Source: Centroberyx gerrardi (taxonomy: Eukaryota; Chordata; Actinopteri; Beryciformes; Berycidae). Taken from it: a stretch of 64,000 nucleotides of DNA. Every line of letters begins with the position of its first letter. Within the stretch, counting starts at the first letter, position 1. The DNA lies in assembly GCF_048128805.1 (NCBI RefSeq), contig NC_135998.1, positions 29,494,992 through 29,558,991 on the forward strand, in the 5' to 3' direction. The notes under the pieces were generated by a model. That model did no database searches. It had not been told where the DNA came from and saw only the letters and a program-made list of their open reading frames with translations. Positions 3,795 to 61,888 of the stretch are shown one piece after another. The translations under genes and the position numbers were made by a program.

Positions 3795-5400
3795 GACTAC
3801 ACGAATCAGACAGGCTGCGTCTCCAGTCATCTGTTTGGTGAGTAACATACTTTTTGGTTAATATTCTATAGGCCTATGGTCCGTGTATTTTTTGATCATT
3901 TTATTTTATTTTCAGAAACGAATGGTGATTTGATGGAAATACAAGGCATTTTTTGTTTTCCTGATCAGAAATGGCAGAGACATTTAGAAAGGCTTGATTT
4001 TCCATTTCTCCTTAGTAACAAAACAAAAACAAAAAAAGTCCTTGCTCTCTGATGTCTTGAGGGTGGTGAGGAGGTGAAAGTCCGATAGGTCTCTATGGAA
4101 TTACAGATTTCCAAGCATGAAAGATGGATATAAACAGATTAATACTAGTACAATACTATACACAGAATCTGCCACATTCTGAATTGATATAGAGGACACT
4201 TACCTCATCTGGTTCAGTCCAGTTTATAAGTGGCTTCTTTTCAAAACCCATCAGTCTGAGAGCTGGAGTACTTCGGTCTTCTCACAGCTGCCCAGGAACA
4301 ATAGCATATGCATGACAATATTTGACTCGGAGAAGAGTTTGACTGAGAATTACAGTATTCAAGCAGAGACATGGATCATCTCATTTACATCATGGAGAAA
4401 CAATGTGTTCAGATTGTGACTGCCCCAACTCCCTCTGCCAGGGCTTGTGTGTCTGTGGGCGTGTCTGCTCTCTCTGCTGGCAGGTTCTGGTGGGGCGGAG
4501 TTGGGAGCCATCAGAGCAACTGGGAGCACCTGGCCAGTGTTCCCAGGGGTGTAAGACCTGCTCCAACCCAGAAGCCGTGGAGACTCTCTCCCATCGCACC
4601 ACGTTTCGTTTGACCGTCGTTCTGTTCTTTTCTGCATTATCCATACAGTAGTCTACCCTCAGACATACATTTCACTCATCCACTCACTACACTACTGACT
4701 CCACTGATTTAGCTGCATTATGGTGTATTTCGTTGTTAGTTTATTCTGCTTTTGTAAATAAATTCCCTTATCTTTTGCCGGTATCTGCATGTCTGCCGTT
4801 TTTGTTAAGATCTAGGAGCAGGTCATAAGATAAACAAGAATAAAGCAAAATAAATCATTTATTAAACTACTTCTCCATGATACAAATTTGTAAAGCAAAA
4901 TTAAAAAAAAAAAATGTGCCATTACTCACACTGTCTGCACATCTAAGATGTAACACATTGCACATGTAAGACATTTTTCCAGTTAATGTGTGAAGTGGTC
5001 AACACATGTACTGTATATGTGATTGCATTGAGAAAACATCATGAGTGAATTTGTGAAATGATTTACAGTACTTTGCTAATGTGTATTATTCTTTTGCTAA
5101 GTATTTACTGTATTTTTTGGTGATGCATTCTCTACAGTAGGAAATTGGAGATTCTGTGGAAAATAACACTATGGTTAATAATATGTAAAAGCTATGTGTG
5201 TGTAAAAGCTGGTAATATGTCTCACCCCTGTAGTGAGGTTGGTGAAGGCCAGGGGATGTGTCTCTGAAATTGATGGCTGGATTTAAAGAGTTGCTTGGAT
5301 GCCAGCTGGAAAGGAAGGTCAGGCAGTGCAGATGCTGTTATTTTGATTTGGTATTGATATGAGTTGAGTTATCCTCTGTTCTTTAAATCTTCAGTTTTTT
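3795..5400. other. Intergenic with possible LTR remnant
   Basis: No gene is supported. The stretch 4390-4810 (GC-richer, then AATAAA at about 4757, then a pyrimidine-rich end) resembles the R-U5 part of a fish Gypsy-like LTR in plus orientation, but I could not find matching ends or a target duplication. Confidence 0.3.
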
Positions 5401-5418
5401 TCCTAATTTTCATTTTTC

Positions 5419-6939
5419 TTGTGTTGCACTTTTGGTTGCACTGTAAATAAATGTCCACCTGTGGGACCTTCAACTCGCCTTCTGAGTCAGTCTCCTACTT
5501 CACTAAAGGCCCTCAGGCTACAGCTATCTCACAAAATGATTTTCTTAATTTCTTTAATCACAAAATTGACTGTATTAGAGATGAGATTATCAATTCATTA
5601 CCCACCGAGGGTGTTGATCCCTCTCCTAATCGTGCATTAGGTGCCATAGAGACCACCACCGTACTCTGGCAATATGAGACTGTCTCCTTAGACACCTTCT
5701 CTAAATTAGTACTTTCCTCTAAATCCACAACCAACCTATCTGACCATCTTCCAAAATTCTAAATTGGTTAGGGAACTTCTCCCAATATTAGGCCCCTCCT
5801 TACTCAACATCATTAACACCTCTCTCTCCTCTGGCGTTGTGCCCTCCTCCTTCAAATCAGCCATAATTAAACCTCTGCTCAAAAAATCTAACCTCGATCC
5901 TGATGTTCTTAATAACTTTAGACCAATCTCTAATCTCCCCTTCCTCTCTAAAGTCTTGGAAAGAATAGTTTCTATCCAACTAACCGACTACCTCTCGTGC
6001 AATAGTCTTTTCAAACCTTCTCAATCTGGCTTTAGGTCTCTCCATAGCACTGAGACTGCTCTCACAAAGGTGGTAAATGACCTACTCCTCGCCTCAGACT
6101 CCAACTCTTCTTCTGTTCTTATCTTACTTGATTTGAGTGCGGCATTCGATACAGTCGATCATAATATTCCCTTAAACTGCCTAGCGAACTACGTTGGCAT
6201 CCGCGACTCACTAACCCTACTTATCCGATAGAACGCATTGTGTCTCACTAAAAATATTATATCTGAACACTCTAAAGTTAACTTTGGCGTACCACGGGGC
6301 TCTGTGCTAGGACCTTTGCTCCATTTACATGCTACCTCTTGGTGAAATTATCCGCAGCTATGGTATTAAATTTCACTGTTACGCGGATGATACTCAAATT
6401 TACATACCCATTACACCTGACGACCGTTTACAACTTACAAACCTAGAATTATGCCTAATCGCTGAATTGGATGTCACAAAACTTCTTGCGACTAAATGCC
6501 AACAAAAGTGAGATGCTAGTCGTTAGCCCAAAAACCCAACTGCCTCTTGTTGCAGACCTTACTTAAAATTGGGGGGATTGCTTAATTACTTAGAGTTCCA
6601 CAGTTAAAATCCGTGGCGTTACTTTTGACTCAGCTCTCTCATTCGATGCTCACATTAAGGAAATCACTAAGATAGCATTTTTCCACCTTCGCAATATCTC
6701 GAAAATTCATTCCCTGCTAAATACGGCGGACGCTGAAACCTTATACACGCTTTTGTTTCATCAAGACTCGATTATCGTAATGTCTTATTCTCTGGCCTAC
6801 CTAACTGCAGTATAAAAAATCTACAATTCATGCAAAATGCTGCTGCCAGAATACTAACCAGAACTAGAAAATTTGACCACATTACTCCAATCCTGACCTC
6901 CCTTCACTGGCTCCCAATTCAAGCCAGATCTGACATTAA
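5419..6939 (+). mobile_element. L2-type LINE, 5' part of broken ORF2
   Basis: Successive frames give reverse transcriptase pieces of an L2/Maui-like non-LTR retrotransposon: [19 protein letters not shown] and [15 protein letters not shown] (5764-6231), then YADDTQIYIPITP (6329-6511), the catalytic YADD box. Stops and frame changes (TAA at 5761, TAG at 6229-6231, others) show it is dead. A thumb/C-terminal part runs to 6939, where a TTAA-target transposon interrupts it; the 3' end resumes at 9699. Confidence 0.85.
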
Positions 6940-7314
6940 AGGGTAACTTCGGTATTTTTCAACCTGGACCCTATTTTCCCAACTTTTTGTGTCTAAGTGA
7001 CTAAAGGGGACAACAATTTTTGAAATTGGTCCAGTATTGAGCAAGATCGTGTCAGCCAGCAGCCGCGAAACGGGCTGCAATGTAATCCAACAGGGTAAAT
7101 GTGAACCGTCAATGTACGTCCACTAAAAGTGCTTGTTTTTGCCACTGACAGGCTCAGATTGTTATTAAGTGTCTGACAACATTATGGAAAGGACCCTACA
7201 GAGAAATGAAATGTTTTTCTTTACTTTTCGCTTGATCCGGTCTGTTTGTTATTAAGCTAGTCAATCTCCTATTATAATCTATAATGATATATTTATTTAG
7301 CCTATTATACTTAT

Positions 7315-8086
7315 TTATTTAGACAATCTGTATGACTTCCACCTACTCGGCCCATTACTGTCCTCTCCGGTGCTGCTGGATAAAGCCGCGTCCTCCTCAT
7401 CCTCCTTCCCCGCCTTGAGAGGCTCTGACCCCGGCCTCTGTTCGCTCCTCTCCACGCTGTGACAGTCTCTCCACCGGGACCGGTTCGCCTCGTGTGCCTG
7501 GCGGCTCCCCGGTGTGCTCTCCATTTCAGGACCCCCTCCCTCAGTCGCCTCGAAGAACGGGTCGAAACCCGGCGGTAAGATCCCGCTCCGCCCCACCGGG
7601 GAGAGGAGTGGGGAGTGCGGCTTGGGCGCGGAGGGGCTGCCGTGGAAAGTCCGAAGGGCTCCGGCAAACACTTGGGCGTGATAACGCGGACCAGGAGCGC
7701 CATAAACCGCGCCGCCGTACAGAAAACAATCGTTATTGGGGTTGAAGATCCGCTCCGATGAGGGTGGGAGAGTCGGGTTCCCGTGAAAAACAACTTCCTC
7801 CGGGGTGTAGAAGCAGGACGGCAGCGGGGAGGCGACGCGGCTCGCCTGGTAAAGGGACCATTTCCCCGGTGGAGGACACTGCTGCCGGGGCTCGGGGTAA
7901 GTAACAGTAGCCTCGGCAGTCCGGTAATCTCCCCGCTGGATGGCCGTTATGGTCCCTGAAAGTTGTGTCGTGGTTTTGTCTAGAGAGTTGGACCGACTTG
8001 TTGACCCCGGTCTCGGTTAAAAACGGTGAATTAACGGAGCCAAATTCAGACTTGGACACATAGTAGGTGCAGCTTGGTAAATACAT
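7315..8086 (-). pseudogene. Captured Hox paralogue-group-11 exon 1 fragment
   Basis: Read on the minus strand from ATG 8084-8086, the frame opens MYLPSCTYYVSKSEF, the N-terminal signature of HOXA11/HOXD11 proteins. A frame change near 7920-7960 leads to a long open frame ending at 7315. It contains GRSGILPPGFDPFFEAT, matching the group-11 'GRNGILPQGFDQF' block, and an acidic serine-rich tail (KEDEEDAALSSSTGEDS), as precedes the homeodomain. It stops at a donor-like AG|GTGGAAGT (about 7313-7321), where Hox11 exon 1 would join the homeobox exon. No homeobox follows. The fragment is GC-rich and lies wholly inside the inverted arms of the transposon. One frameshift argues for a pseudogene. D11 seems nearest, but A11 or C11 cannot be excluded. 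Confidence 0.75.
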
Positions 8087-8298
8087 GGTGCATTGTAGTT
8101 TACTCTTTCTATAGGCTGGTGTTGTGTTTTTTAAGCGTAGGCTTTATTGTGAAATAGGCTATAAGCCTAAAAGACTTGGTTACACACAACAACAAACAGA
8201 CCGGATCAAGCGAAAGAAAAACGTTTGATTTCTCTGTAGGGTCCTTTCCATAATGTTGTCAGACACTTATAATAACAATCTGAGCCTGTCAGTGGCAA

Positions 8299-9491
8299 CA
8301 GAGTGCGAATTATACAATGACAATCGGGGGGGTCAACTTTTTCTACAGGGCGTAAAGAGAACCCAGTACAGCGCAGACTCGTGCTTCAGTAAACTGAAGT
8401 CTTACAATCCTTACAGCGTCTTGCTTGTTTAACGTAATGTCTGCAGTCTGTAGATGATGATGATAAATCAAATCCATTACACCAGCTCATGGGGCACGTA
8501 CCACACAACAACTTTTGTAGTCAGGGGTCACCAACAAAGTATTCTCTACATAATTGGCAGGGGGGTCTGGGGGTCCTCCCCCAGAAAAAAAATAGTAATT
8601 TAAAACAAATTTCCTGCATTTCTACACCACCTAACCTCTTGGATTAAGTCAAGAAACAGCAACCCTGTATAATGTTAACCAAAAATGTAAAATTATGTTA
8701 TATTACTAGATTTCAGCATTGAGGTGCTTACATTCATGACTTTGCATAGGCATACTAACCTAAAAACCTATTATGGAATCGCAAGAAAGTTTCAAAGCGA
8801 CAGACACAGAGCGTCCCGTAACCATAGCAACTCACTCTTACTCCTGCCTGCGTGGCGCGAGAGGAGAGGGAGAGACGCAGAAGAGCCGCTGACAGATTAC
8901 TCTGAGCAGCATGCATGGGAATAAATTAGGCCTACAATATAATAGATTTGTGTATATTTCTTCTCGCTTTCCCCCATGGTCTGAATAACTCTCTGCTGCA
9001 CGGTGCTGCTCTGTCTCGTCTGTCCGTGCGCTGTCAGTGTCTCTTTTCGCGCCGCGACGTTATTAGTGATGAATTTGTTTTTCACTGCGTGAGAAAATGG
9101 ACTTGTGGCGTGAGAGCGTGTGGAAGTGTCAATTGCGTGAGTCTCACGGTCAATGCGTGAGAGTTGGCAGCCCTGGCGTCTCCATTGGCTTGCGCGACGC
9201 ACGCGAGCATAGACTTTAAAGCCTTGTTTGAGTGAGGCAGGCAGACGAGACGTTCAACTAACGTCAAGGTTAAGAAATGGTATGGTCCACTTTAGGGGTG
9301 TCTGAAATCGTATTACAAGATTCTTCTAGGCATGAATATGGGAAATATATTGTAATATTTACGATTACAAGTAAGAAGGATATATAAATATTTCGACCCC
9401 CCCGACCTGTTGTTTTTACCTCTTTTGGGGGGGTCCAAGTCTTAATTAGGGGGGTCAGACCCCCCCAATCCCCCCCGTAATTCGAACCGTG
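8299..9491. mobile_element. Nested hAT-like element with 8-bp target duplication
   Basis: AGTGGCAA occurs at 8291-8298 and again at 9492-9499, an exact 8-bp target duplication. The ends read CAGAGTGCGAATTA and, inverted, CACGGTTCGAATTA, giving imperfect terminal inverted repeats. C/G runs sit next to both ends. No transposase motif is visible, so it is non-autonomous. It splits the right arm of the surrounding TTAA element and is therefore the youngest layer of this three-level nest. Confidence 0.75.
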
Positions 9492-9698
9492 AGTGGCAAA
9501 AACAAGCACTTTTAGTAGACGTACATTGACGGTTCACATTTGCCCCGTCGGATTACATTGCAGCCCGTTTCGCGGCTGCCGGCTGACGCGATCTCGCTCA
9601 ATACTGGACCAATTTCAAAAATTGTTGTCCCCTTTAGTCACTTAGACACAAAAAGTTGGGAAAATAGGGTCCAGGTTGAAAAATACCTAAGTTACCCT

Positions 9699-9970
9699 TT
9701 AAGATGCTTCTGTTAGCATATAAATCGTTACATGGGCTTGCACCATCATATTTATCTGACCTCATCATCCCTTATGTTCCCCCTCGTGCCCTTACCTTAC
9801 TGTCCCTAGAATCAAGAAAAAAAATCAGCAGGCAGTAGAGCGTTCTCCTACTGAGCTCCCTATCTCTGGAACCAGCTACCTCTTACAGTCAGGGAAGCTA
9901 ATTCTGTCGAAATCTTCAAATCTAGACTCAAAACCTATTTATTCTCGCAATCATACAACCTATGATAGCA
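9699..9970 (+). mobile_element. L2-type LINE, 3' part
   Basis: This continues the L2 frame after the inserted transposon: it reads LAYKSLHGLAPSYLSDLI, typical of the L2 C-terminal region, then degrades (stop near 9835). The last recognisable L2 sequence ('ctcaaaacctatttattctcgcaatc') is near 9930-9955. Confidence 0.75.
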
Positions 9971-10430
9971 CCGTTGGCTTGGGATCGACAGTCTATTTTC
10001 TTACCTTAGACAGTATTTACATAGGAATTTGCCATTGGGAACATAGCATAGGGCTGCCTCCTGGTTACACTGTGTCTAATCACTTTCTATCTGCTGTCTG
10101 TACGAGTGTGTCTGTGGCCAAATATGTCTGGGTTTTGTGTTGCATTTGCACAGCTCTGTGTGTGTGTGCGGCTGGTTTTCCCTTTTCCCTCCCTTTTCCA
10201 GTGCAGTCTTCTAGCTGTCAGCGGACGTGTTAATCTTTAATGAGTATTGTTATATTCCACTGGGTTTAGTGCAGGTAGATTGTGAATATTTATAGTAGAG
10301 AGATAACGCACATCAAAAAAAAAAAAACTTTTTGTAGAGAGGTGCTGATCACTGGCAGTAAACAGGAGAAAACAGAAGAAAAAGTGTCGCACACTCCAGC
10401 TCCATAGAAAATACCCTAAACGCAACCAAG
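9971..10430. other. Intergenic, no gene seen
   Basis: Weakly GT-rich sequence (a tgtgtgtgtg run near 10157) and an A-run near 10315. No supported feature. Confidence 0.4.
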
Positions 10431-10857
10431 TCCTGGGGCACGTTCAATCTGAAGACGGTGTGTACCGTTTTGCTACGGGCTTTGAGGTACGTTGTCTCTC
10501 GTTTGGTGGGTGTGTCAGAGGTGTTACCCAATCAGCAGCGACGTGTATATAAACCCCGCTGTATTAAAAAGGCAGTGCGCACAATGGATCCAACAAAAGT
10601 CCTTTACAAATGCGTCCGCTGCAGCTTGGTGTCTGCAACAATTGAACTAATTAGAAGAAATGTTTGTCGTAAGTATTTTATAGTTTTAAACCGATTTCAT
10701 CAGGCTCTGAAAATTCTTCGAAAAGAATGCAAAGAATGGCCTTCTCAGCTGCCATAGTTGCAACGCTTGCGTAACACAACAGGGTGTTCAACGCACCACC
10801 GTTTCCGTTTAAATAAACGTTTTGCTACGTTTTGTCAGGGCTGAACGCGTCCCTGGT
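10431..10857 (+). mobile_element. MITE-like repeat with promoter-like core
   Basis: The left end is CCTGGGGCACGTTCA and the right end, inverted, CCAGGGACGCGTTCA, suggesting terminal inverted repeats. Inside are a CCAATCAGCAGC-like CCAAT box (10529-10540), a TATA-like GTATATAAA (10545-10553) and an ATG at 10584 opening a short frame (MDPTKVLYKCVRC...) with no known domain. Probably a dispersed fish DNA transposon (Harbinger/ISL2EU type possible) that carries its own promoter. The class is inferred. Confidence 0.4.
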
Positions 10858-11004
10858 AAACTATATAGACCAACAACACCTGATGGTAATCATGCAATCA
10901 GGCTAAACCATTCAGGGTAAAGTATAGGAGGCCCCCGGCCAATCAAATTACTTTTGAGAGAAAACAGTGACAGGAAATGTAATAATAAACAGATATACAC
11001 TAGG

Positions 11005-11012
11005 GGTGTAAC
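11005..11012 (+). repeat. Left target duplication GGTGTAAC
   Basis: This 8-bp string recurs at 13781-13788 directly after the right end of the BED-finger hAT. It lies inside an older repeat end (TAGGGGTGTAACGG...), itself typical of hAT termini. Confidence 0.8.
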
Positions 11013-13780
11013 TAGGGATGCACCGATTGTGAAATTCTGGGCTGATACCGAAGTTTAAAATAACAATTTGGCTGATAGCCGATGCTGATACCGATGGGGT
11101 TTTTTTTGTTTGTTTATTTTGTTTTTGTTGTTATTTATTCCCCCTTTTGTGACAGGGAAACAAAGAAATCTTCATTATAAAAAAAAAAACTGAACTGTTT
11201 TAAAGTCTTTCAGCCCTTCATCACACTATCTTTGAATGAGCACAAATTCAATCATACAAATTTATGAAACAACCTTTAATATAACCTTCTTTCACATGAC
11301 AAAGATTCTTTGTGTGAAAAATAACTGTTTCAAAAGCCTTTTTAGCCTGCTATACAACTACCTACTCAATAAGAAGAATTTTTCAGTACTTCTAGCCCAA
11401 CAAAAATTTTTTGTTTAACATAAATTAAATGTAATTAAATGTAAATGTAAAAGCAATTAGAAAAGCAATAAAATATAAAATAAAATATAAAAAATAAATG
11501 ATTAATAAATACAAACATAAATAGGGCTATCTTTCACCTCTTGTGTTTTTCATACAGAATACAACATTTCCATGTTTCCATTAAGCACAAACTTACAGTA
11601 GGCTGGAACATGGGGCTGAACATGGGCCTCTTTACAAAACAAAAATTGGCCTCTTAGGAAAAGCCTTCCCATACAGTGGGCCGCCTCTTCCGAATATTAA
11701 TGATAAAATAAAATCACCGGTACCTCATAGCCTACTTCTTTTTCTTTACAAAGATAAGCATCTCTGCCTTGTTGCAGCTCAGTCTATGCTCAGTCTATTT
11801 CTCTTCTCATCCAAGATGTGAGATGCAGAGCTGAACAGCCGCTCACTGTCCGTGCTGGTGCATGGAGCACACTATTTGCGTGCCATTTGTGCCAGTGCTG
11901 GAAAACGGAGGTGATTATTTCTCCAATATCCGAGTGCGGTCTCATTTCTGGAAATGGGGGCCTCTGCAAAGAAACCATCCAGCTGCTGTGATGCCCTCGT
12001 CCTTGGCCTTTCTGGTCCCTTTTCCTCCAGAATCTCTTCAAACATGTCATGCAGAGTGGGCCGTGCCCCGTCCGTTCGTGCCCTCTTGCACTGTGGGTGA
12101 TCAGCTCTCTCTCTACCGTGCGTCTGCGTCTCATCTCCAGCACCGGCAGCAGGCCTATCCATCAGTTGCGTGTCAAGTGTTGCTCGTGCGGGTTGTTTAA
12201 CATCCTCATCAAAGTAGCGGTCCTTATATCTGGGATCCAGTGAGGTTGCAATGCAGAAAATGGGATCAGACTCCATTTGATCGAAGCGTTTGTTTACAGC
12301 CTCTAATAACGCTTTGTGGTTTTAACACCATGGTCTGTGTCAGCCTCCTTGCTTAAAAGACGTCTCAGGGCTCTCACCGAGGGGATCACGTCAGCAGCCG
12401 ATGCCTCTGATGAGCTGACTTGTCTTGTCAATTGTTCAAACGGGGAGAGAAGTGTGATAAAGTTTTCAACTAATCCCCACCGGTGCGCAGTGAGGGTTGC
12501 GGGGAGGTCGTAGTCTGCGGCATATGTAGCAAGTGCGTGCTTTTGTTCCAGAAGGCTTTCCATCATATAGAATGTACTATTCCACCGAGTGGAAACATCT
12601 TGCTGTAGCCTTTGGTTTCATCTCCAACTGGATCTGCACAGCCTGCAGGCTCGAGTAGGCAAGGGGTGAGTGTTTAAAGTGTCCGACTATCTTTCGGCCT
12701 ATTGCCACCACATCCAAGATGCTGCGCTGGCTCAGAACACCATCGTGGACAGCCAGCTGCAGGGTGTGTGCCATGCAGCCAAAACTAGCCAGACCACTAT
12801 CTGTCATAGCTTTTGCCATATTTCTGGCGTTATCTCTCACGACAGCATGCACTTTGGATTTGTCTATTTTCCATGTTTCAAACATTTTCTCAAATGCCTC
12901 CGAAATAGCAGATACGGAGTGTAACACTGCTTTTATCAAGTTAAAATCTTTGTCAATCCACTGTGCCGTGAGGCTAAGCATGCTCACAGGGCTAGCATCC
13001 GAACTCCATATATCAGTTGTAAAACTGATGGCAGGGATGTCACGAGCCAGTAGCTCATGAATGTGTGTGGCCACAACGTTGTATATTTCGGGGAGACAGA
13101 CGTCAGCAAAATGACGACGACTGGGCAGTGTGTAGCGGGGCTCCGCATACTCCATCAGGCTTCGAAACCCCACGTCCTCCACAACGGAGAAAGGTTGGTC
13201 ATCTAATGCGATGAACTCCATTACCTTGTTAGTGATCCCTTTAGCTTTGGCGCTGTCTGTGAGGAATTTTTTCCCTTTCTCAAATGCTGTGGTTATCGAC
13301 TGAGTCTTGCTGGTGGTGGTTTGTGCTTTCTTGGTGTCCAGTTCATTTCTCCGTTTTTTATCGGCTTTCAGGTAATCGTTGTACACTTCTCCGTGTCTGC
13401 TTTTCAAATGGCTGATGAGATTTGATGTGTTAAAATTCTTGTTTGTAGTACCTCCTCTTGAAATGTCACTGGAACATGTCTTACAAACTGCATATCGCTG
13501 ATCTTTCTCCGAGACAGTGAAATACTCTGCCCTCTTACGTCATGCCAGAGTCGTGTCCAACCAGTGGCTGTTGCTGGGTAGGCTACTGTTGTCCGAGTCA
13601 GACCGCAAATAACCAACACAACATTTAACGTTAGCCAGCGCAAAATTGATGTGACACAACAGATAAACATCGGCCACTGCCATCGGTGAATGTCATCTTA
13701 TTTGGCGATAGGCCGATGGCAGTCAACAAGGCGAATATCGGCCGATACCGATGTACGGCCGATAAATCGGTGCATCCCTA
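11013..13780 (-). mobile_element. Complete hAT transposon with BED-finger transposase
   Basis: The ends are TAGGGATGCACCGAT and ATCGGTGCATCCCTA, inverted copies of each other, with the GGTGTAAC duplication on both sides. Subterminal 'gccgataccgat' units recur at both ends. The transposase reads on the minus strand but is inactivated. The left third is AT-rich and non-coding. Confidence 0.85.
11775..13500 (-). pseudogene. BED-zinc-finger hAT transposase, inactivated
   Basis: From the 5' side: a BED-type finger (CKTC...SHLKSRH, about 13395-13475), an RNase-H-like core with ISFTTDIWSSDASPVSML and VRDNARNMAKAM (12577-13407), the DVSTRWNS region (about 12575-12605), DPRYKDRYF (about 12225) and the C-terminal dimerisation block STDSERLFSSASHILDEKR (about 11795-11855). 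This domain order is that of ZBED-like hAT transposases. Breaks: a frame change near 12605-12620, another near 12315, and an in-frame TAG at 11872-11874 just before the dimerisation block. It therefore cannot make active transposase. It occupies most of the element with target duplications at 11005 and 13781. Confidence 0.85.
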
Positions 13781-26260: not shown

Positions 26261-26937
26261 GTGACGATCAGGAAATACTGGTTGACGACCACGGAAAGCA
26301 TGGTGACTACTGGAAACCAAGCTACAGAGAAGCTTATGGAAACGTACCCCCAGGGGAGCCCAAGAGGGGGGCAGAATAAGCACCCCATTCAGACGGACCT
26401 AACGGCACTAGACCCAGGCAACAGACAAGCGAGGACGAGCAAGCAGTGTACCTGTGTCAAGATCTGCAAGAATGTATGGGCCTTAAAGATCCACCAATCC
26501 AGGATGAAGTGTTTGATAGGGAGAGGGGCAACACCTGGTGAGATGCATGAGGAGCCAGGCCCGGAGTCACCCCACAGTGCCCGGAACCTCCAAGTGTCGC
26601 AAATGGCTTCCTGTAGCGGATCAAGTGGCATCATTGTGGAACCAGTCTGACAATGATATAGACCAAATTCTGGAGGCAACAGTGAGGAGAAATGTCGACA
26701 GGAAGCTTCAAGCCATGACAACAGTCATTGTGAGCCTCGCATGTCAAAGATTTGGAGAAGAGGAACAGAAAGGCCCCAAAGGACCTTACTTAAAGAACCA
26801 AGTGAGGATCCACAATATCAGGCAGGAGCTGAAGACCCTAAGGCACCAGTACAAGCAGGCAGGAGAAGAGAAGCACATAGACCTTGCTCAGTTGACGTGC
26901 ATCCTAAGGAAGAAGAGCTGCAGCTGAGGGAAGTTTA
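26261..26937 (+). pseudogene. R2-like LINE, N-terminal ORF fragment
   Basis: One frame (26261-26650) has a CCHC-type zinc-finger-like stretch, CTCVKICKNVWALKIHQSRM followed by KC. An overlapping frame (26538-26925) has DNDIDQILEATVRRNVDRKL and later LRHQYKQAGEEKHIDLAQL. This combination occurs in the N-terminal part of fish non-LTR retrotransposon proteins annotated as R2-like. The frame change and missing reverse transcriptase show it is dead. It is cut at 26937 by the large palindromic element. Confidence 0.55.
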
Positions 26938-28759
26938 TGGAGATATTTTCCTATCTTTATTCAAGAGCGTGGTCTTTCAATTTGAGAGCATGATTTATTG
27001 ATTTCACGTTCAGATTTTGTAATGCTTTCCCTCAAACCCTGCCCTCGCACTCAAATATCTCCTGCTTGCACTTAGATTTGCTCTGCTTCTGCTCAAACTG
27101 TATGCTTGCACTCAGATATAATGTTGCTTGCACAGATTTTCTGCGCTCCAGCTTCAGCCCTTCTCCTCGCACTCAGGCTGCTTCTGTGCGCTCGTGAAAC
27201 TTCTGCTCTCAGATTTCTGCTCTGCTCTCGGATTTTTTGTGCAACAACCCTGTCAAAATTCCCCAACCAATAGAATGCCAGGTGTAGTGTTGACCAATGA
27301 AATGATCCCTGCCTCGTTGCGGGTGCGTTCGCTTTACTTCTTAGAGCGTCCCGTACGGGCGGTTACTGTTTAACCGGGTTCATCCACTCTCGCCCTCCGG
27401 GGCTTTATTAATTACGACTTTTGGAATAAAAGGACAGTTAATGTATATACCAGCGTCTGTACTTTTTCTTTTACTATAATAGCTACATAAAATAGTAGCC
27501 GTATAGCACACCGGCCTCCCGTCGGTGTGCTAGAGGAGAAAACGACGTCACCTTCATGACTCAGGAGCGGGAGTCTCGCGGATCGCTGGCCAATATGGAC
27601 CGCCAAAGTCAAGGACCTCAAGTAAGTTTTTTATTTTAATGGTGCTATTACTTCCTTTAAATTGAATTGGTTACGTGTTTACCGTATTTACCGTATTTAC
27701 AATATGTGAAACCTTTCTGATAGAGCAGACTTTGACACAGCAACGGTAAACATCATTTGAAGAGAAGGATATATACACAACACACCAACTGCGTTTTTAA
27801 AATGTAGTAGCTCATTGAATTTACTTTTGTTTTCTACTGTCTTAATGTGTTAGCTGGTTACTTTTGCTGTTGGTACTTTTCCCATTCCTAAATACTAAAA
27901 AAAGAAACACGGCGGCGTCCATTTTGTTGTTAGTTGCCTAGCAACAATGTTCCCATAACGTACAACACTTGAAAGCCAAGCATATTATCATGGATGTATT
28001 CTTGTGCCGCAAATATGACTTAACCAATTCAATTTGAAGGAAGTAATAACACCATTAAAATAAAAAAACGTACTTGAGGTCCTTGACTTTGGCGGTCCAT
28101 ATTGGCCAGCGATCCGCGAGACTCCCGCTCCTGAGTCATGAAGGTGGCGTCGTTTTCTCCTCTAGCACATCGACGGGAGGCCGGTGTGCTATACGGCTAC
28201 TATTTTATGTAGCTACGGTATTATAGTAAAAGAAAAAGTACAGACGCTGGTATATACATTAACTGTCCTTTTATTCCAAAAGTCGTATTTAATAAAGCCC
28301 TGGAGGGTGAGAGTGGATGAACCCGGTTAAACAGTAACCGCCCGTACGGGACGCTCTAAGAAGTAAAGCGAACGCGCCCGCAACGAGGCAGGGATCATTT
28401 CATTGGTCACTACACCTGGCATTCTATTGGTTGGGGAATTTTGACAGGGTTGTTGCACAAAAAATCCGAGAGCAGAGCAGAAATCTGAGAGCAGAAGTTT
28501 CACGAGCGCACAGAAGCAGCCAGAGTGCGAGGAGAAGGGCTGAAGCTGGAGCGCAGAAAATCTGTGCAAGCAACATTATATCTGAGTGCAAGCATACAGT
28601 TTGAGCAGAAGCAGAGCAAATCTAAGTGCAAGCAGGAGATATTTGAGTGCGAGGGCAGGGTTTGAGGGAAAACATTACAAAATCTAAACGTGAAATCAAT
28701 AAATCATGCTCTCAAATTGAAAGACCACACTCTTGAATAAAGATAGGAAAATATCTCCA
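26938..28759. mobile_element. 1.8-kb palindromic foldback element
   Basis: The left arm 26938-27673 and right arm 28021-28759 are inverted copies differing at only a handful of sites; a 347-bp spacer separates them. The ends TGGAGATATTTTCC and GGAAAATATCTCCA are flanked by TA (26936-26937 and 28760-28761), so a TA (or TA-containing) target duplication is likely. Identical short open frames in both arms (27128-27373 plus, 28327-28569 minus) simply mirror each other. No transposase is visible. TA targets are used by Tc1/mariner and, as TWA, by PIF/Harbinger elements; the family is unknown to me. Confidence 0.8.
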
Positions 28760-28915
28760 TAGTAGTTGAAGAGGCTGCCCGCAAAGCGTGAGCAAGCTCT
28801 GCTTCAGGACCTAGCAGTATTTCATATAAGGTTTACAAGAACTGCCCTAAACTCCTGCTGTTATTTAAAGAAGGGGCAGGATCCAAGAACAGTGGAGAGT
28901 TGCCGAAGGGGTTTG

Positions 28916-32340: not shown

Positions 32341-32920
32341 CAAGAAAAGGTAAAAAAGAAAAAACAGAGCAATGTAATACAATACAGTATTAGACATTAT
32401 TGTAAAAAATAAATAAAAAGTTCATCCCATGTGTTAGTGAATTTTTAAATATTTTCGAATGGCAGGAAATGAGTTTTCAAATTTTGATTTTTTTCTTGGG
32501 GGGGGGGGGCAGACCCCCCGGCAGATTTGGTCCCCCCCAGTGTCGACTCCATGGCTACGGCCTTGCTGCAGTGTATTCCAATGCTATATGCTCAGAGCTG
32601 TTTCCTGCTTATCCCATGCACACCTCCCTGAGACTGAGAGTGGTTCTCCAAAGCAGTGCAATAATGATGTTTGGACAGCAGAGCAGAAAGCCTATAAACT
32701 AGCTGGAGCTCCTATCGTTCAAACTGGCATTGGAGCATTTTCAGCAACAGTGCCTCATGTACACTGGGCATCATGTTCTCATGCACAGACTCTCTCCCCT
32801 TCTCCTCTCCCTAGCATAAACTCTGCTGGTCTACAATGAACAACTCTATGATATCTTTTAGGAAACATGGCTTGCACACACTCATCTTTGTTATACAATA
32901 GCAGCTCACCACAAAGCCAT
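32341..32920. other. Intergenic with MITE end
   Basis: A G-run/C-run hairpin at 32499-32540 resembles the 'ggggggg...ccccccc' ends of a fish DNA repeat also seen near 8325 and 9400-9475. No polyadenylation signal for the kinase gene is obvious on the minus strand here. Confidence 0.35.
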
Positions 32921-36907
<3,987 letters not shown>

Positions 36908-43800: not shown

Positions 43801-46800
43801 GAGCATGTAAACACACTCGTGACTCATTATTAGGAGTTTACATTATGAGGATGTTATCATTGGTTAATATCGGCATATTCCAGCTCGCATATTTGTGTTT
43901 CTCATATTTGGGATATGGGCTTATCTCCGTCACTGTAAACAGGACATAGTGTTTACATGCACCAGCTCACAAACAGAATATTTGATTATCTTGAATATAA
44001 ACTGAATATTAATGTGAATGCGAACACACAAAATGAGCAAGGGAACAGGGAGGGTCCCTTCTTTGAGGTCGAGTTTAAATATGCTGAGGCAGAAGTGGAA
44101 AATAAGCAATATTTTTTTCCCATCACATTTCAGCATATTTAATGTTTGTAAAGACCCCCAAATTGTTGTTTATATCAAATGTGTTCATATTGAATTTTGT
44201 TTTTGTCATATGGCGATGGTAATGTATGTCAAAGCTGGATCATCAGTTGAAGTTCTCATGACAGTTATCTTTTCTGTCCTCTTCTCTCACAGCAACTAGA
44301 GCTCATCACACCTTTTCAACTGTACTTCAACCCTGATTTGATTCTAAGGAATTACCAGGTGAGTGATTTCCTCCATTTAGCAGAATAACCTCCAGAGAAG
44401 AGGGTTCTCTGTGCTGTAAGTGTGATGGTGGACAGCGCTAGTTTTTCCAGTCGAGAAGAGGTGCGAGTGGAGAGAAAACAAGGCCGTGGTGCGCCGTGCT
44501 CGGTCGTTCAAATTACAAAAAACGCTGTTGAAAGAGGCGTTGTCTGGGACACGCTGCCAATGCCAGATCCCCAAAAATGCAAGCTGTGGCTGCAATGCAT
44601 TCTGGTCTATTGTCGGCGGAGAAATTGGTGTCTCTGCCCCATGTGATGGATTTCTCCCTGTATGACTGTTTTGTTTTTGGTGAAAGTAATAAAAAGTTAT
44701 CCCAGCTAAAAATCAAATAAAATCCATGATATTTGAAATATTACGATGCAAGAGATACAGGTGTAGAAGGTCGCCCTGGTTAAACATCTTGATCACTTTT
44801 ATCATCATGAGTTTATTATCTTTCACCAGAAACAGACATTGGTGCCTTAGGGACTGACACCAAACTCCATTGTAGCTGCTAATATCTCAGTGTGACGTCA
44901 CATCGTCTACATTTGGTCAGTTATCCACAGGAATGAAAAAATACACCAACAAACAACAAAATGGGCTCAGAAATGAAAGTTACATCACCAATAGCTGTTT
45001 TGTAATGTTGAAAGTGTTTTAAGGCGCTTTTAATATATGGGAAGATAGTTGAGAGGGAGACAGAGATACAGGACAGGATTAAAGGGGGTACATTCACACA
45101 CTATTACTTTTCAGCAGCAGCATTATTGCAGCTCAAAATTCAAATTATTCAGAGAGTTTGTACTGGCTTACAAAGAGGTGAAGCTGATAGGCCTAATAAC
45201 TGTAGCAGAGTGACATGGCAGTATAATGTTGCATAACTGTGTCTAATGAAGCCTTGGCCTCAGGAAGAGGTTTTGGGTGAGCGAGATGATTATCTTGCTA
45301 CTACTTGCTCTTTGGTGTAGCATGGAAACACATTACAGCAGGTGGCTAATGCAAAACAACCCGGTTGCTTTGCAATGTACTTAGTTGCACCTTCATGACA
45401 AAATTAGTAACTTGTTTTTATTACCGGTGTGCTTAGCCCTAGCTTAATTTAAGATAATTCCTTCACAATATACATAATGTTTTCAGCTGTGTTATTTATA
45501 TTTTCAGCCTGACTTCAGGTGTATTCAACAGTAGGGATGTAGAACATTTCTGAATATATTGTTAGCTTTTTTGAAAGGCAACCATTAAATTTGTCTATAC
45601 AGTGTAACTGAACATCTCTGATACAATCGGTTGATTACAGTTCTAAATGAATGTGATTGGAAGGCTTAGCAATAAGTTCGACTTCACTCTTTGTATTTGT
45701 ATTTGAATTCAGCGTACTTAATACAAATACAATCTTAAGTTACCTTTGCAACCAGACTTATGTAACCAAGAAGTCTTTCAGAATTATCTTGGTTGTAACA
45801 TTAAATTCAAACAGTCTGAATCCTCTTGGCAAATTCACATCATTAGCCGTGAATTAAAGTCAAATATTTATTCTATTATTTGTGTGTCCCAAACTGAAGA
45901 TGGCTTACCCAATGCGTCAAGTTTTTGACACGTACTGTACTTCTCCAGGCCTGTTAGTAATGTTTCACATGTCTTGTGGTCTGCTTCACATCATTATGTC
46001 CACAACCGTTTCCATGATGTCATGTTATTTTGCCGCACCTTAGGTTTTACTGAATTGTCCCTGAAGGCTAACTGCTGGAGATTCAATAATAAAACATAGG
46101 CTCCAGCCACTATTAAAACGCAAGCTGTTGAAAAAAGTGATATTTTTTCTCAGACAAATGATTTGTGGATTTATTAATTCTGTTGTATTCATGTCCTGGT
46201 TTACAGCTGAATCTTCTCTCTCTTTGTCTCATTTTCCAGGTATGGCGGCTAATAACCAACTTTCTGTTTTTTGGTCCAGTTGGCTTCAACTTCCTGTTCA
46301 ATATGATTTTTTTGTATCCTTTTCAGTTGCGGGTCTCTCTGCAAGTATGCATATGAAATACATTTGCATATTTTCTGTTTCACTTAAAAAGGGTAAAGGT
46401 ACATGTGGTTTCAGAGATGGGATTATTAAACGCTACGCTGCTCTGGGGACTAGACATACAAATGGAGGGAAATAAGTCACATGATCAGAATCTTTATGTT
46501 ATGATGATGATGATGATGATGAAACGTAAGATTGGCCTTGCAGTTGTGTTTCTATAATCAGGATATGTTGCATGTTTTGTGTATATTTCCTTAACCGCTT
46601 GCCTTCAGGTACCGATACTGTCGTATGCTGGAGGAGGGCTCTTTCAGGGGACGCACGGCTGACTTTGTCTTCATGTTCCTCTTTGGTGGGCTTCTGATGA
46701 CTGTATCCTTCCTCTGAAAGCTTCTCTTTGATTGGTGGGTTTGTCCAAAACAGAGTATGGGCCAGAAAGAGAGATTTGAAAGCCAGAAATCTCAGCACCA

Positions 46801-48565
46801 GGCCAAGTAATCACTGAGTCACTGGTATTGATCAACAGGCATACGAGTAAAAATCTTAGATAATGCACCTTTTTAAAAGTTGTATTTTTTGTTAGCTACA
46901 AACTACTTATCCTGAGGTCCACAGACAATGTATGTACTGGAAATATTTGATGCATTGAAAACATCACATCTGTCCTGTCTGGAGGCTTGTGGGTTGCTTT
47001 CCCACATACTCTTTGCCATCTGGTTTCTTTTCCTGTATCTTTACTGCTAAATTAATACCCTGATTGCTGCAGGTGGTATAACCAGCAAGAAACATATCAC
47101 GCACCTGTTAGAGCCTGTTAAAGAGTGATTAATGGATAATTCTGGTTATTTTCAACCTGGGCATTATTTTCCTAGTTTTTGCCATCATGATGATTGATTG
47201 TGGTCAGAATTTACTCAATTACTTCACTGTAGATCTTCAGTTTGAGCGCTGCTCTTCCATACACACTCAAGGGCCAAAGCAAGCTCCAACCGTTGAACCC
47301 AAAAAGCAATTAAAACACAATAACACTCACACTGCAGTTACACAATGTCTTTAAATACCTGTGATTGAACAATATTCACAACATTTTAGTTATAATAGTC
47401 CATGTGATATTGTTTAGCGTTGCTCACACACTTCCATGTTTAGTTTGCTGGCTGCCAGTTTTCTTTTTTTTATGTTTTTAAAAAAAAAATTTGTTTTTTT
47501 GCCTTTTACCCTTGATTTGATACTTAACAGTGGAGAGAGACAAGAAAGATTGGGGAGGAGAGAGAGGGATCAAATGCTAAAAAAGTCTTTGGCCGGATTC
47601 GAACCCAGTAGGCAGTTCATATTTACAGAACATCCAATATGACTTGAACACAGCATCAGAGTACTTGTGCGCTCTACTTGCAGACTAATTAAAATAACGT
47701 ATCTAATACCACAATGTATACAAGTTTCAGGCAATGGGTAATCGGAAATTGGATGTAGGAAGGTCCCGTTGCAGTGTGAGTGTTACTGTGTTGAAAGGAC
47801 GTGTTAAGTCGTTTTTGGATTCAACTGTTGAATTCTAGTTTATTTAGTTTATTTGCCACGTTCTTCTTTAACAAGCTCCCAGATATTTGGCACTTTTGTG
47901 AGTTTGGTGTTCCTGGGCCAAGCCTTCACTATCATGCTGGTGTACGTGTGGAGTCGGCGAAACCCGAACGTTCGCATGAACTTCTTCGGCCTGCTGAACT
48001 TCCAGGCGCCCTTCCTGCCCTGGGTGCTGATGGGATTCTCTCTGTTGCTGGGCAACTCCATCATTGTGGATCTATTAGGTAGCTGTTGCTCTCATCTTCA
48101 TTCATTATTTAGCGCCTTAGCGGTATTCCAAGAGCCAAAATGTGTCTTTGTGGATGATAGTGATTGTGATTTCATGTTTTGTCCCGTCCTGAGGTATCGC
48201 TGTTGGTCATGTGTACTTCTTCTTGGAGGATGTGTTCCCCAACCAGCCAGGTGGTGGCAGGTGGCTCAAGACCCCCTCTATCATGTGAGTCCTACATTCC
48301 CTTACGCAAATACTAATACAGAGATGTATTTGTTCTGTTTTCTGTCCATTTTGTCGTCATTTTACGAGATATCGGCCTGTTGGAAGTGAGATCCGTCACT
48401 ACCTGTGTGCGTCTCTAGAAGTCGTCCATCCACCTCTTCTTCTCTGTATCTCCCCGCAGAAAGATGCTGTTCGACACTCCAGAGGAAGACGCCAACTACA
48501 ACCCCCTCCCCGAGGAGCGCCCCGGAGGGTTTGCCTGGGGGGAGGGACAGCGCCTTGGGGGTTAA
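40883..48565 (+). CDS. derl3: Derlin (Derlin-2/3 family)
   Basis: Rhomboid-like ER membrane protein without protease activity that serves retrotranslocation of misfolded proteins in ERAD, with p97/VCP. Seven exons: 40883-40975, 44293-44358, 46240-46313, 46609-46702, 47883-48078, 48194-48284, 48460-48565; phases agree and give 239 aa, the usual Derlin-2 length. Features: WR motif in VWRLITNF (W55, R56), GIAVG GxxxG motif 175-179, and a C-terminal SHP box [11 protein letters not shown] (229-239) for p97 binding. The start has a good Kozak context (AAAATGG). The N-terminal half is Derlin-3-like (PVVTRAY, YQVWRL), while the tail is Derlin-2-like. The neighbouring smarcb1 favours derl3, since human DERL3 lies beside SMARCB1; derl2 cannot be excluded. 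Introns 3 and 4 look U12-type. Confidence 0.9.
40976..44292 (+). other. Derlin intron 1 with repeats
   Basis: 3.3-kb intron, donor GTAAGA. It contains a hAT-like repeat about 41975-42225 (CAGGGGTCCC-like start, 'ctttgggaaccac' end) and a palindromic MITE at 43592-43921. Other open frames have no domain. Confidence 0.5.
43592..43921. mobile_element. Palindromic MITE
   Basis: The left arm 'catatcccaaatatgaaaaa'...'atgccgatattaac' (43592-43649) is the inverse of the right arm 'gttaatatcggcatattcc'...'catatttgggatatgg' (43863-43921). The spacer is about 210 bp. Non-coding foldback element in Derlin intron 1. Confidence 0.6.
44385..44690 (+). repeat. Dispersed repeat copy A (Derlin intron 2)
   Basis: The segment holds 'agaagagggttctctgtgct', 'gcattctggtctattgtcgg' and 'tttctccctgtatgactg'. 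The reverse complements of these strings, lightly diverged, occur at 58355-58665 in a smarcb1 intron, so this is a dispersed element of about 300 bp. Class unknown. Confidence 0.6.
46314..46608 (+). other. Derlin intron 3, U12-type signals
   Basis: The donor is GTATCCTTTT and the branch point TTCCTTAAC (46587-46595) lies 14 bases from the acceptor. Both match the minor-spliceosome (U12) consensus, and no strong polypyrimidine tract is present. An (ATG)n run sits at 46500-46521. Confidence 0.75.
46703..47882 (+). other. Derlin intron 4, U12-type signals
   Basis: The donor GTATCCTTCC and branch-like TTCTTTAAC (47864-47872; 8 of 9 bases to TTCCTTAAC) sit 10-11 bases from the acceptor AG at 47881-47882. 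This fits U12-type splicing. The intron also holds a Kolobok-like fragment near 47125-47190 and a minus-strand SINE at 47505-47612. Confidence 0.65.
47505..47612 (-). repeat. tRNA-derived SINE, 5'-truncated
   Basis: On the minus strand a B box GGGTTCGAATCCGGCC (47591-47606) is followed by a body 'cccaatctttcttgtctctctccactg', the same body as in the SINE at 62712. The A-box half is missing. Confidence 0.65.

Positions 48566-50493: not shown

Positions 50494-61888
<11,395 letters not shown>

Follow-up and report, generated by a model that had tools for sequence, protein, structure and literature searches.

A DNA transposon in the genome of Centroberyx gerrardi in all likelihood carries a captured piece of a Hox gene. 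In the window, by which is meant the whole stretch of 64,000 nucleotides that was analysed, a non-autonomous, Kolobok-like transposon with TTAA at its ends holds at its centre a 934-bp segment that appears to stem from the hoxd11b gene of the host's own lineage, and the element would accordingly be classed as a Pack-TIR. An earlier note on this DNA had proposed that a DNA transposon with a TTAA target carries exon 1 of a group-11 Hox gene, which is borne out by the arms, the TTAA copies, the Hox-D11b-like match and the reading frame of the joined flanks. The Hox clusters of most vertebrates are unusually poor in transposons, and the hoxd11b exon found here as cargo indicates that fragments of Hox genes can be acquired by DNA transposons. 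The presence in such an element of a complete coding exon of a Hox gene, together with an apparent intron edge, represents a clean, datable duplication of part of a developmental regulator. Moreover, the intact gene in a close relative, together with the arms as an independent clock, makes the distinction between gap filling in place and capture before a jump testable. The accumulated changes point to a cargo that is a decayed passenger with no present function.

Structure of the TTAA transposon

The features of the element and its surroundings are collected in Table 1.

Table 1. Features of the TTAA transposon, its cargo and its surroundings in the window
Feature	Position	Strand	Basis or remark
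Upstream part of the non-LTR retrotransposon, with a reverse transcriptase fragment	5710-6935	+	Pfam RVT_1, E 1.6e-14 on 5710-6231; one frame reaches the TTAA
TTAA target copies	6936-6939 and 9699-9702		
TTAA-flanked inverted-repeat DNA transposon	6940-9698	.	Cargo and later nested insert within its bounds
Left inverted arm	6940-7253	+	Starts with AGGGTAACTT; aligned to right arm
Cargo, probable captured hoxd11b segment, 934 bp	7254-8187	-	Database search, alignment, tree
Presumed start of hoxd11b intron 1, 93 bp	7254-7346	-	Starts with donor GTAGGT
Hox-D11b exon 1, coding part, 740 nt	7347-8086	-	4-nt insertion near 7,900 shifts the frame
Presumed 5' UTR or proximal upstream DNA, 101 bp before the Hox ATG	8087-8187	-	Inferred from position only
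Right inverted arm, inner part	8188-8298	-	Arm alignment
8-bp direct repeat AGTGGCAA	8291-8298 and 9492-9499		Flanks the nested insert on both sides
hAT-like non-autonomous insertion, 1193 bp	8299-9491	.	Splits the right arm
Right inverted arm, outer part	9500-9698	-	Arm alignment
Same non-LTR retrotransposon, resuming beyond the element	9703-9990 (end approximate)	+	Joined-flank frame
DYRK4-like host gene, several exons	32900-36290	-	Protein comparison

With the TTAA counted in, the inverted match pairs 6936-7253 with 8188-8298 plus 9489-9702. After removal of the nested insert, the arm alignment, TTAA included, extends over 312 columns and contains 8 gap columns and 11 mismatches, of which nine are transitions; the two arms differ by 3.5% and by two gaps. 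Both arms open with AGGGTAAC, in which the AG terminal dinucleotide (RR) is present, and AGGG/CCCT is found at both outer ends of the element. The arms flank the cargo symmetrically, and their shared inner sequence stops at one common point. When the flanks are joined without the element, an open retrotransposon frame runs across the junction, ...QARSDIKMLLLAYKSLHGLAPSYLSDL..., and the same frame read into the element meets a stop within three codons. The element is inserted in a non-LTR retrotransposon.

The right arm is itself interrupted by a nested insert, which is read as hAT-type because of its 8-bp target repeat; the repeat suggests this class, to which the insert is provisionally assigned. 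Its ends, CAGAGTGCGAATTA and CACGGTTCGAATTA, match in part by eye, and local alignment reported an internal match only. The nested insertion is later than the element, which has probably been less mobile since the insert entered its right arm. The interval 6940-9698, which the earlier note treated as one element, is thus a TTAA-flanked inverted-repeat transposon as claimed, but about 1.2 kb of it is a separate, later insertion.

Peptides encoded by the arms matched a single database protein, which has 82 residues and occurs on 6 contigs (E 8.6e-7); arms related by sequence to those of the element thus occur elsewhere. A 20-base arm pattern found no match in viral and prokaryotic contig collections, nor did the left arm in a phage collection, neither search having a bearing on copy number. 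In addition, Rfam returned no match at the gathering score on 6500-10200, and the tandem repeat scan of 4000-12000 gave four rows, none of them within the element.

Identity of the cargo

The GC content of the cargo exceeds 0.6 over part of its length, compared to about 0.4 in the adjoining stretches, and its extent of 934 bp (7254-8187) agrees with the GC-rich segment of about 935 bp described before. Its minus strand reads MYLPSCTYYVS... and GRSGILPPGFDPFFE... in two overlapping frames, and no single open frame spans the exon; the two peptides had been reported as one following the other, and both are present, but a 4-nt insertion near 7,900 parts them into different frames. The best database match of the joined cargo reading is a Hox-D11b-like protein of Centroberyx affinis (P0001; E 4.2e-111), followed by proteins of Myripristis, Polymixia and many further fish. 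Forty-seven proteins were obtained at E up to 10, 31 with a Hox-D11 name, 11 with another or a generic name and 5 unnamed. This strong similarity answers the comparison with Hox11 proteins that had been put forward as a check, and a lack of similarity is excluded. With the frame change placed correctly, 219 of 236 aligned residues (92.8%) are identical between the cargo and P0001 across the whole exon, and 186 of 245 (75.9%) between the cargo and the Myripristis protein. Pfam reported DUF3528 in the cargo (E 2.5e-4; 22.3 bits, below the curated cut-off of 29.5 bits) and no transposase domain. Among solved structures, neither the first-frame ORF nor the joined exon had a relevant counterpart.

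In a maximum-likelihood tree of 17 rows, comprising the cargo and 16 sequences selected from the 47 matches (HoxA11, HoxC11 and canonical teleost D11a left out), the cargo and the C. affinis Hox-D11b-like protein are sisters with support of 100/99. The name D11b is the label of the C. affinis record, and three close matches, from Myripristis, Polymixia and Lampris, are labelled Hox-D11a-like. The cargo gene is best described as a probable Hox-D11, "D11b" being the annotation of the closest species.

The window also holds a DYRK4-like gene, for which comparison proteins were chosen among the best 120 of 804 matches. It shares 419 of 443 residues (94.6%) with a C. affinis protein (P0048) and 69.9-71.9% with four other fish proteins, two from C. 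affinis, one from C. gerrardi and one from Myripristis. Since the DYRK4-like gene and the Hox cargo are both closest to C. affinis among the proteins compared, the cargo and the host appear to belong to a common lineage. Because the best Hox match is from Centroberyx, arrival of the cargo by horizontal transfer from a different group of fish was also considered, but there is no need to assume it, the DYRK4-like gene being likewise closest to C. affinis.

Edges of the cargo

The exon ends at 7347 and the donor GT occupies 7346-7345, in agreement with the earlier claim of a donor-like site at the exon end. The match to P0001 stops at ...DSNGP, after which one base is followed by GTAGGTGGAAGTC, which is donor-like, and the phase of this donor suits the next residues of the intact C. 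affinis protein. From the donor, the cargo continues for 93 bp to 7254, where the left arm takes over. Six of the 47 matches have no homeobox domain, and the ends of all six were inspected. One of them, P0014, reads through as DPSKWKSY, compared to PSRWKSY in the cargo, a likeness that fits a conserved start of intron 1; the ends of P0008, P0013, P0023, P0046 and P0047 showed no clear match to the cargo past the donor. A six-frame pattern scan of the whole window found no homeobox motif, and the cargo has no poly-A tail. Judging from the position of the donor and from P0014, the cargo apparently extends into the beginning of intron 1; it also seems to take in about 100 bp upstream of the ATG. 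The GT donor at which the exon match stops, in the phase that the parent protein requires, suggests that genomic DNA was copied and that the capture took place at the DNA level rather than by way of a retrocopy. Folding of the 101-bp upstream piece gave nothing beyond that of its shuffles (z -0.53).

Decay and age of the cargo

The 4-nt insertion breaks the Hox frame after about 62 codons. Compared to C. affinis, one further residue is missing in frame from the cargo, and nine residues common to the cargo and Myripristis are absent from C. affinis. Seventeen residue differences separate the cargo from C. affinis; with Myripristis as outgroup, 11 could be placed on the cargo side and 1 on the C. 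affinis side, and 5 were undecided. The alignment used for this polarisation comprised the cargo and 42 of the 47 matches, P0043 to P0047 being left out. The binomial chance of at least 11 of 12 changes on the cargo side is P 0.003, and the branch lengths of the tree are 0.069 for the cargo and 0.012 for C. affinis.

The 11 changes over about 562 nonsynonymous sites amount to 2.0%, and the divergence of the arms corresponds to 1.8% per arm on the assumption that the arms were once identical. Neutral simulation at 1.8% yielded a mean of 9.3 changes (95% range 4-15), with 69% of runs free of stops, and at 2.5% a mean of 12.8 changes, with 59% of runs free of stops. The absence of stops is thus no sign of constraint, because neutrally evolving sequences mostly remain stop-free in these simulations. 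Protein constraint on the cargo was rejected on the strength of the 11:1 asymmetry, the tree branches and the neutral simulation. Since the 2.0% change of the cargo is near the 1.8% of each arm and the excess changes lie on the cargo side, the cargo resembles a pseudo-exon free of constraint, with an age roughly equal to that of the element's insertion. Any change that the host lineage had acquired by the time of capture is counted within the 11:1 asymmetry, part of which could predate the capture. A broken frame and no homeobox motif set the cargo apart from a functional Hox gene, and it probably has no present protein function.

Transposon class and known systems

Inverted repeats of piggyBac elements start with CCC, and membership in piggyBac was rejected on the AGGG start of the element. 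The plant Pack-MULEs, to which the earlier note likened the element, belong to the Mutator superfamily and have longer target repeats; as in the element described here, gene fragments have been captured by non-autonomous DNA transposons. This likeness is apt, but the class is not new, as Pack-TIRs of animals have been described (PMC8277862).

According to the description of the Kolobok superfamily of Xenopus in PMC6004289, its members have a TTAA target and RR (AG) termini, and T2-MITE termini read AGGRR. The element shares with these T2-MITE and Kolobok elements the TTAA target and the purine start AG. Its terminus AGGGT agrees with the T2-MITE motif at four of five bases, the fifth being T. 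The element itself has no transposase, and from the TTAA and the AG terminus it is a probable member of the Kolobok superfamily.

As reported in the main text of Tan et al. 2021 (PMC8277862), 100 animal genomes contain 370 Pack-TIRs, eight of them in zebrafish, and 323 of the 370 are hAT or TcMariner elements. To a class made up mainly of these two groups, the present element is a probable TTAA (Kolobok-like) addition. Like the animal Pack-TIRs of that article, which are mostly single-copy, it is an inverted-repeat DNA transposon with host DNA inside and a target duplication. Its TIRs enclose non-transposon DNA, and the target site is duplicated at the outer ends, with TTAA on both sides and joined flanks that continue the retrotransposon frame; a relative, the intact Hox-D11b-like protein, was found in another species, C. 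affinis. The fold-back element Ssk-FB4 that carries a fly gene, as treated in the same main text, is similar in its long arms and its central gene segment with upstream DNA, but it belongs to another superfamily and has a 9-10 bp target repeat. In addition, according to the abstract of that article the Ssk-FB4s form a family of proteins that bears signs of positive selection; the Hox exon described here, in contrast, is broken. The words Hox, Kolobok, piggyBac and TTAA gave no hit when the main text of PMC8277862 was searched for them. A literature search that covered few subscription journals found no earlier case of a Hox exon captured by a DNA transposon.

Proposed route of capture and alternative explanations

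A plausible route of capture could start from the long inverted repeat, which would stall replication and break at its centre. Repair, or the polymerase of the stalled fork, would then switch to the hoxd11b locus as template, copy about 100 bp of upstream DNA, the whole coding exon 1 and 93 bp of intron 1, and return to the element, after which the cargo would decay as an unconstrained pseudo-exon. The main text of PMC8277862 explains single-copy Pack-TIRs mostly by in-place gap filling, accompanied by short stretches of microhomology and by breakpoints that lie preferentially inside the element, and attributes those with several copies to fork switching and subsequent transposition. The central place of the Hox segment fits gap filling and fork switching alike, and we consider capture in place and capture before a jump about equally likely. 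The parents of animal Pack-TIRs are mostly near according to the same text (160 of 281 within 15 kb). No such bias is apparent here as far as the window reaches, in which inspection of the ORF lists by eye and a motif scan recognised no further Hox gene; to the extent that its sequence can tell, the window is not a Hox cluster.

Several other origins of the structure can be weighed against a capture by one transposon. It is quite unlikely that a duplicated hoxd11b fragment came by chance to lie between two separate, opposed copies of a short element and was moved jointly with them. Such a composite would not require arms that were identical at birth, which is compatible with their 3.5% divergence and two gaps, and a TTAA (7252-7255) does coincide with the inner limit of the left arm. 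However, the right inner junction has no TTAA, the nearest in the scanned stretch being at 8131, and neither inner arm end has AGGG or CCCT nearby, whereas both outer ends have them; the common inner sequence of the arms also reaches one identical point. A processed hoxd11b retrocopy inserted in the element would account for the coding exon sequence but not for the continuation of the exon into a GT donor and intron-like DNA, nor for the absence of poly-A and of a homeobox exon, of which the motif scan showed no trace in the window; such a retrocopy is extremely improbable. An assembly artefact that fused a Hox fragment with a transposon is very unlikely as well, since a Hox fragment joined in error from the resident gene would be expected to be intact; the cargo instead differs from the C. 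affinis gene by its own frameshift and extra changes, consistent with the divergence of the arms. Least credible, to the point of being nearly impossible, is that ordinary transposase or non-Hox GC-rich sequence was misread as Hox. The sub-threshold DUF3528 match would be in line with such an error, but the E-value of 4.2e-111, the 92.8% identity across the exon and the lack of a reported transposase domain speak against it, and the Hox match together with the missing domain rules out the transposase reading.

The remaining alternatives concern not the origin of the cargo but its use. The element might act as a mobile first exon, its upstream DNA, exon 1 and donor being transcribed and spliced to neighbouring host exons, or hairpin-flanked small RNAs might act on the resident hoxd11b. 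It would favour this that the element combines upstream DNA with the exon and with GTAGGT, a donor close to the consensus, but the reading frame is lost after about 62 codons, the cargo evolves without visible constraint, a later insertion interrupts the right arm and the element sits within a retrotransposon, all of which makes such a role unlikely. A broader form, in which the first exon of a Hox gene, along with its upstream DNA and a splice donor, would have become a mobile 5' exon of the TTAA family, present in several copies in Centroberyx and its kin and either starting transcripts and splicing downstream or yielding hairpin RNA against the resident hoxd11b, strikes us as improbable. 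The reading that we favour remains a hoxd11b segment that was probably captured at the DNA level and has since decayed in a Pack-TIR.

Other features of the window

DERL- and SMARCB1-like exons are located farther along the window (Pfam DER1 and SNF5). Among the best 120 of the 804 matches to the DYRK4-like gene, C. affinis has at least three DYRK4-like proteins of differing sequence (P0048, P0051 and P0053), which suggests an expansion of this putative kinase family in the C. affinis lineage. Remnants of a hAT-type transposase occupy 11872-13539 on the minus strand: 12577-13539 matches a BED zinc finger (E 1.4e-7), and 11872-12321 gives a sub-threshold hAT dimerisation match (E 0.0026). Two inverted arms of about 741-744 bp, at 26936-27676 and 28018-28761, are 97% identical with 341 bp between them and form a recent large palindrome or fold-back-like structure. 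Related repeats at 44362-44670 and 58357-58700 make up an inverted pair that is 68% identical over 354 columns. The sole arm-like stretch in the window, 52 nt at 47129-47180, is 75% like the outer arm of the element and adjoins a TTAA; it is possibly the end of an older, related TTAA element.
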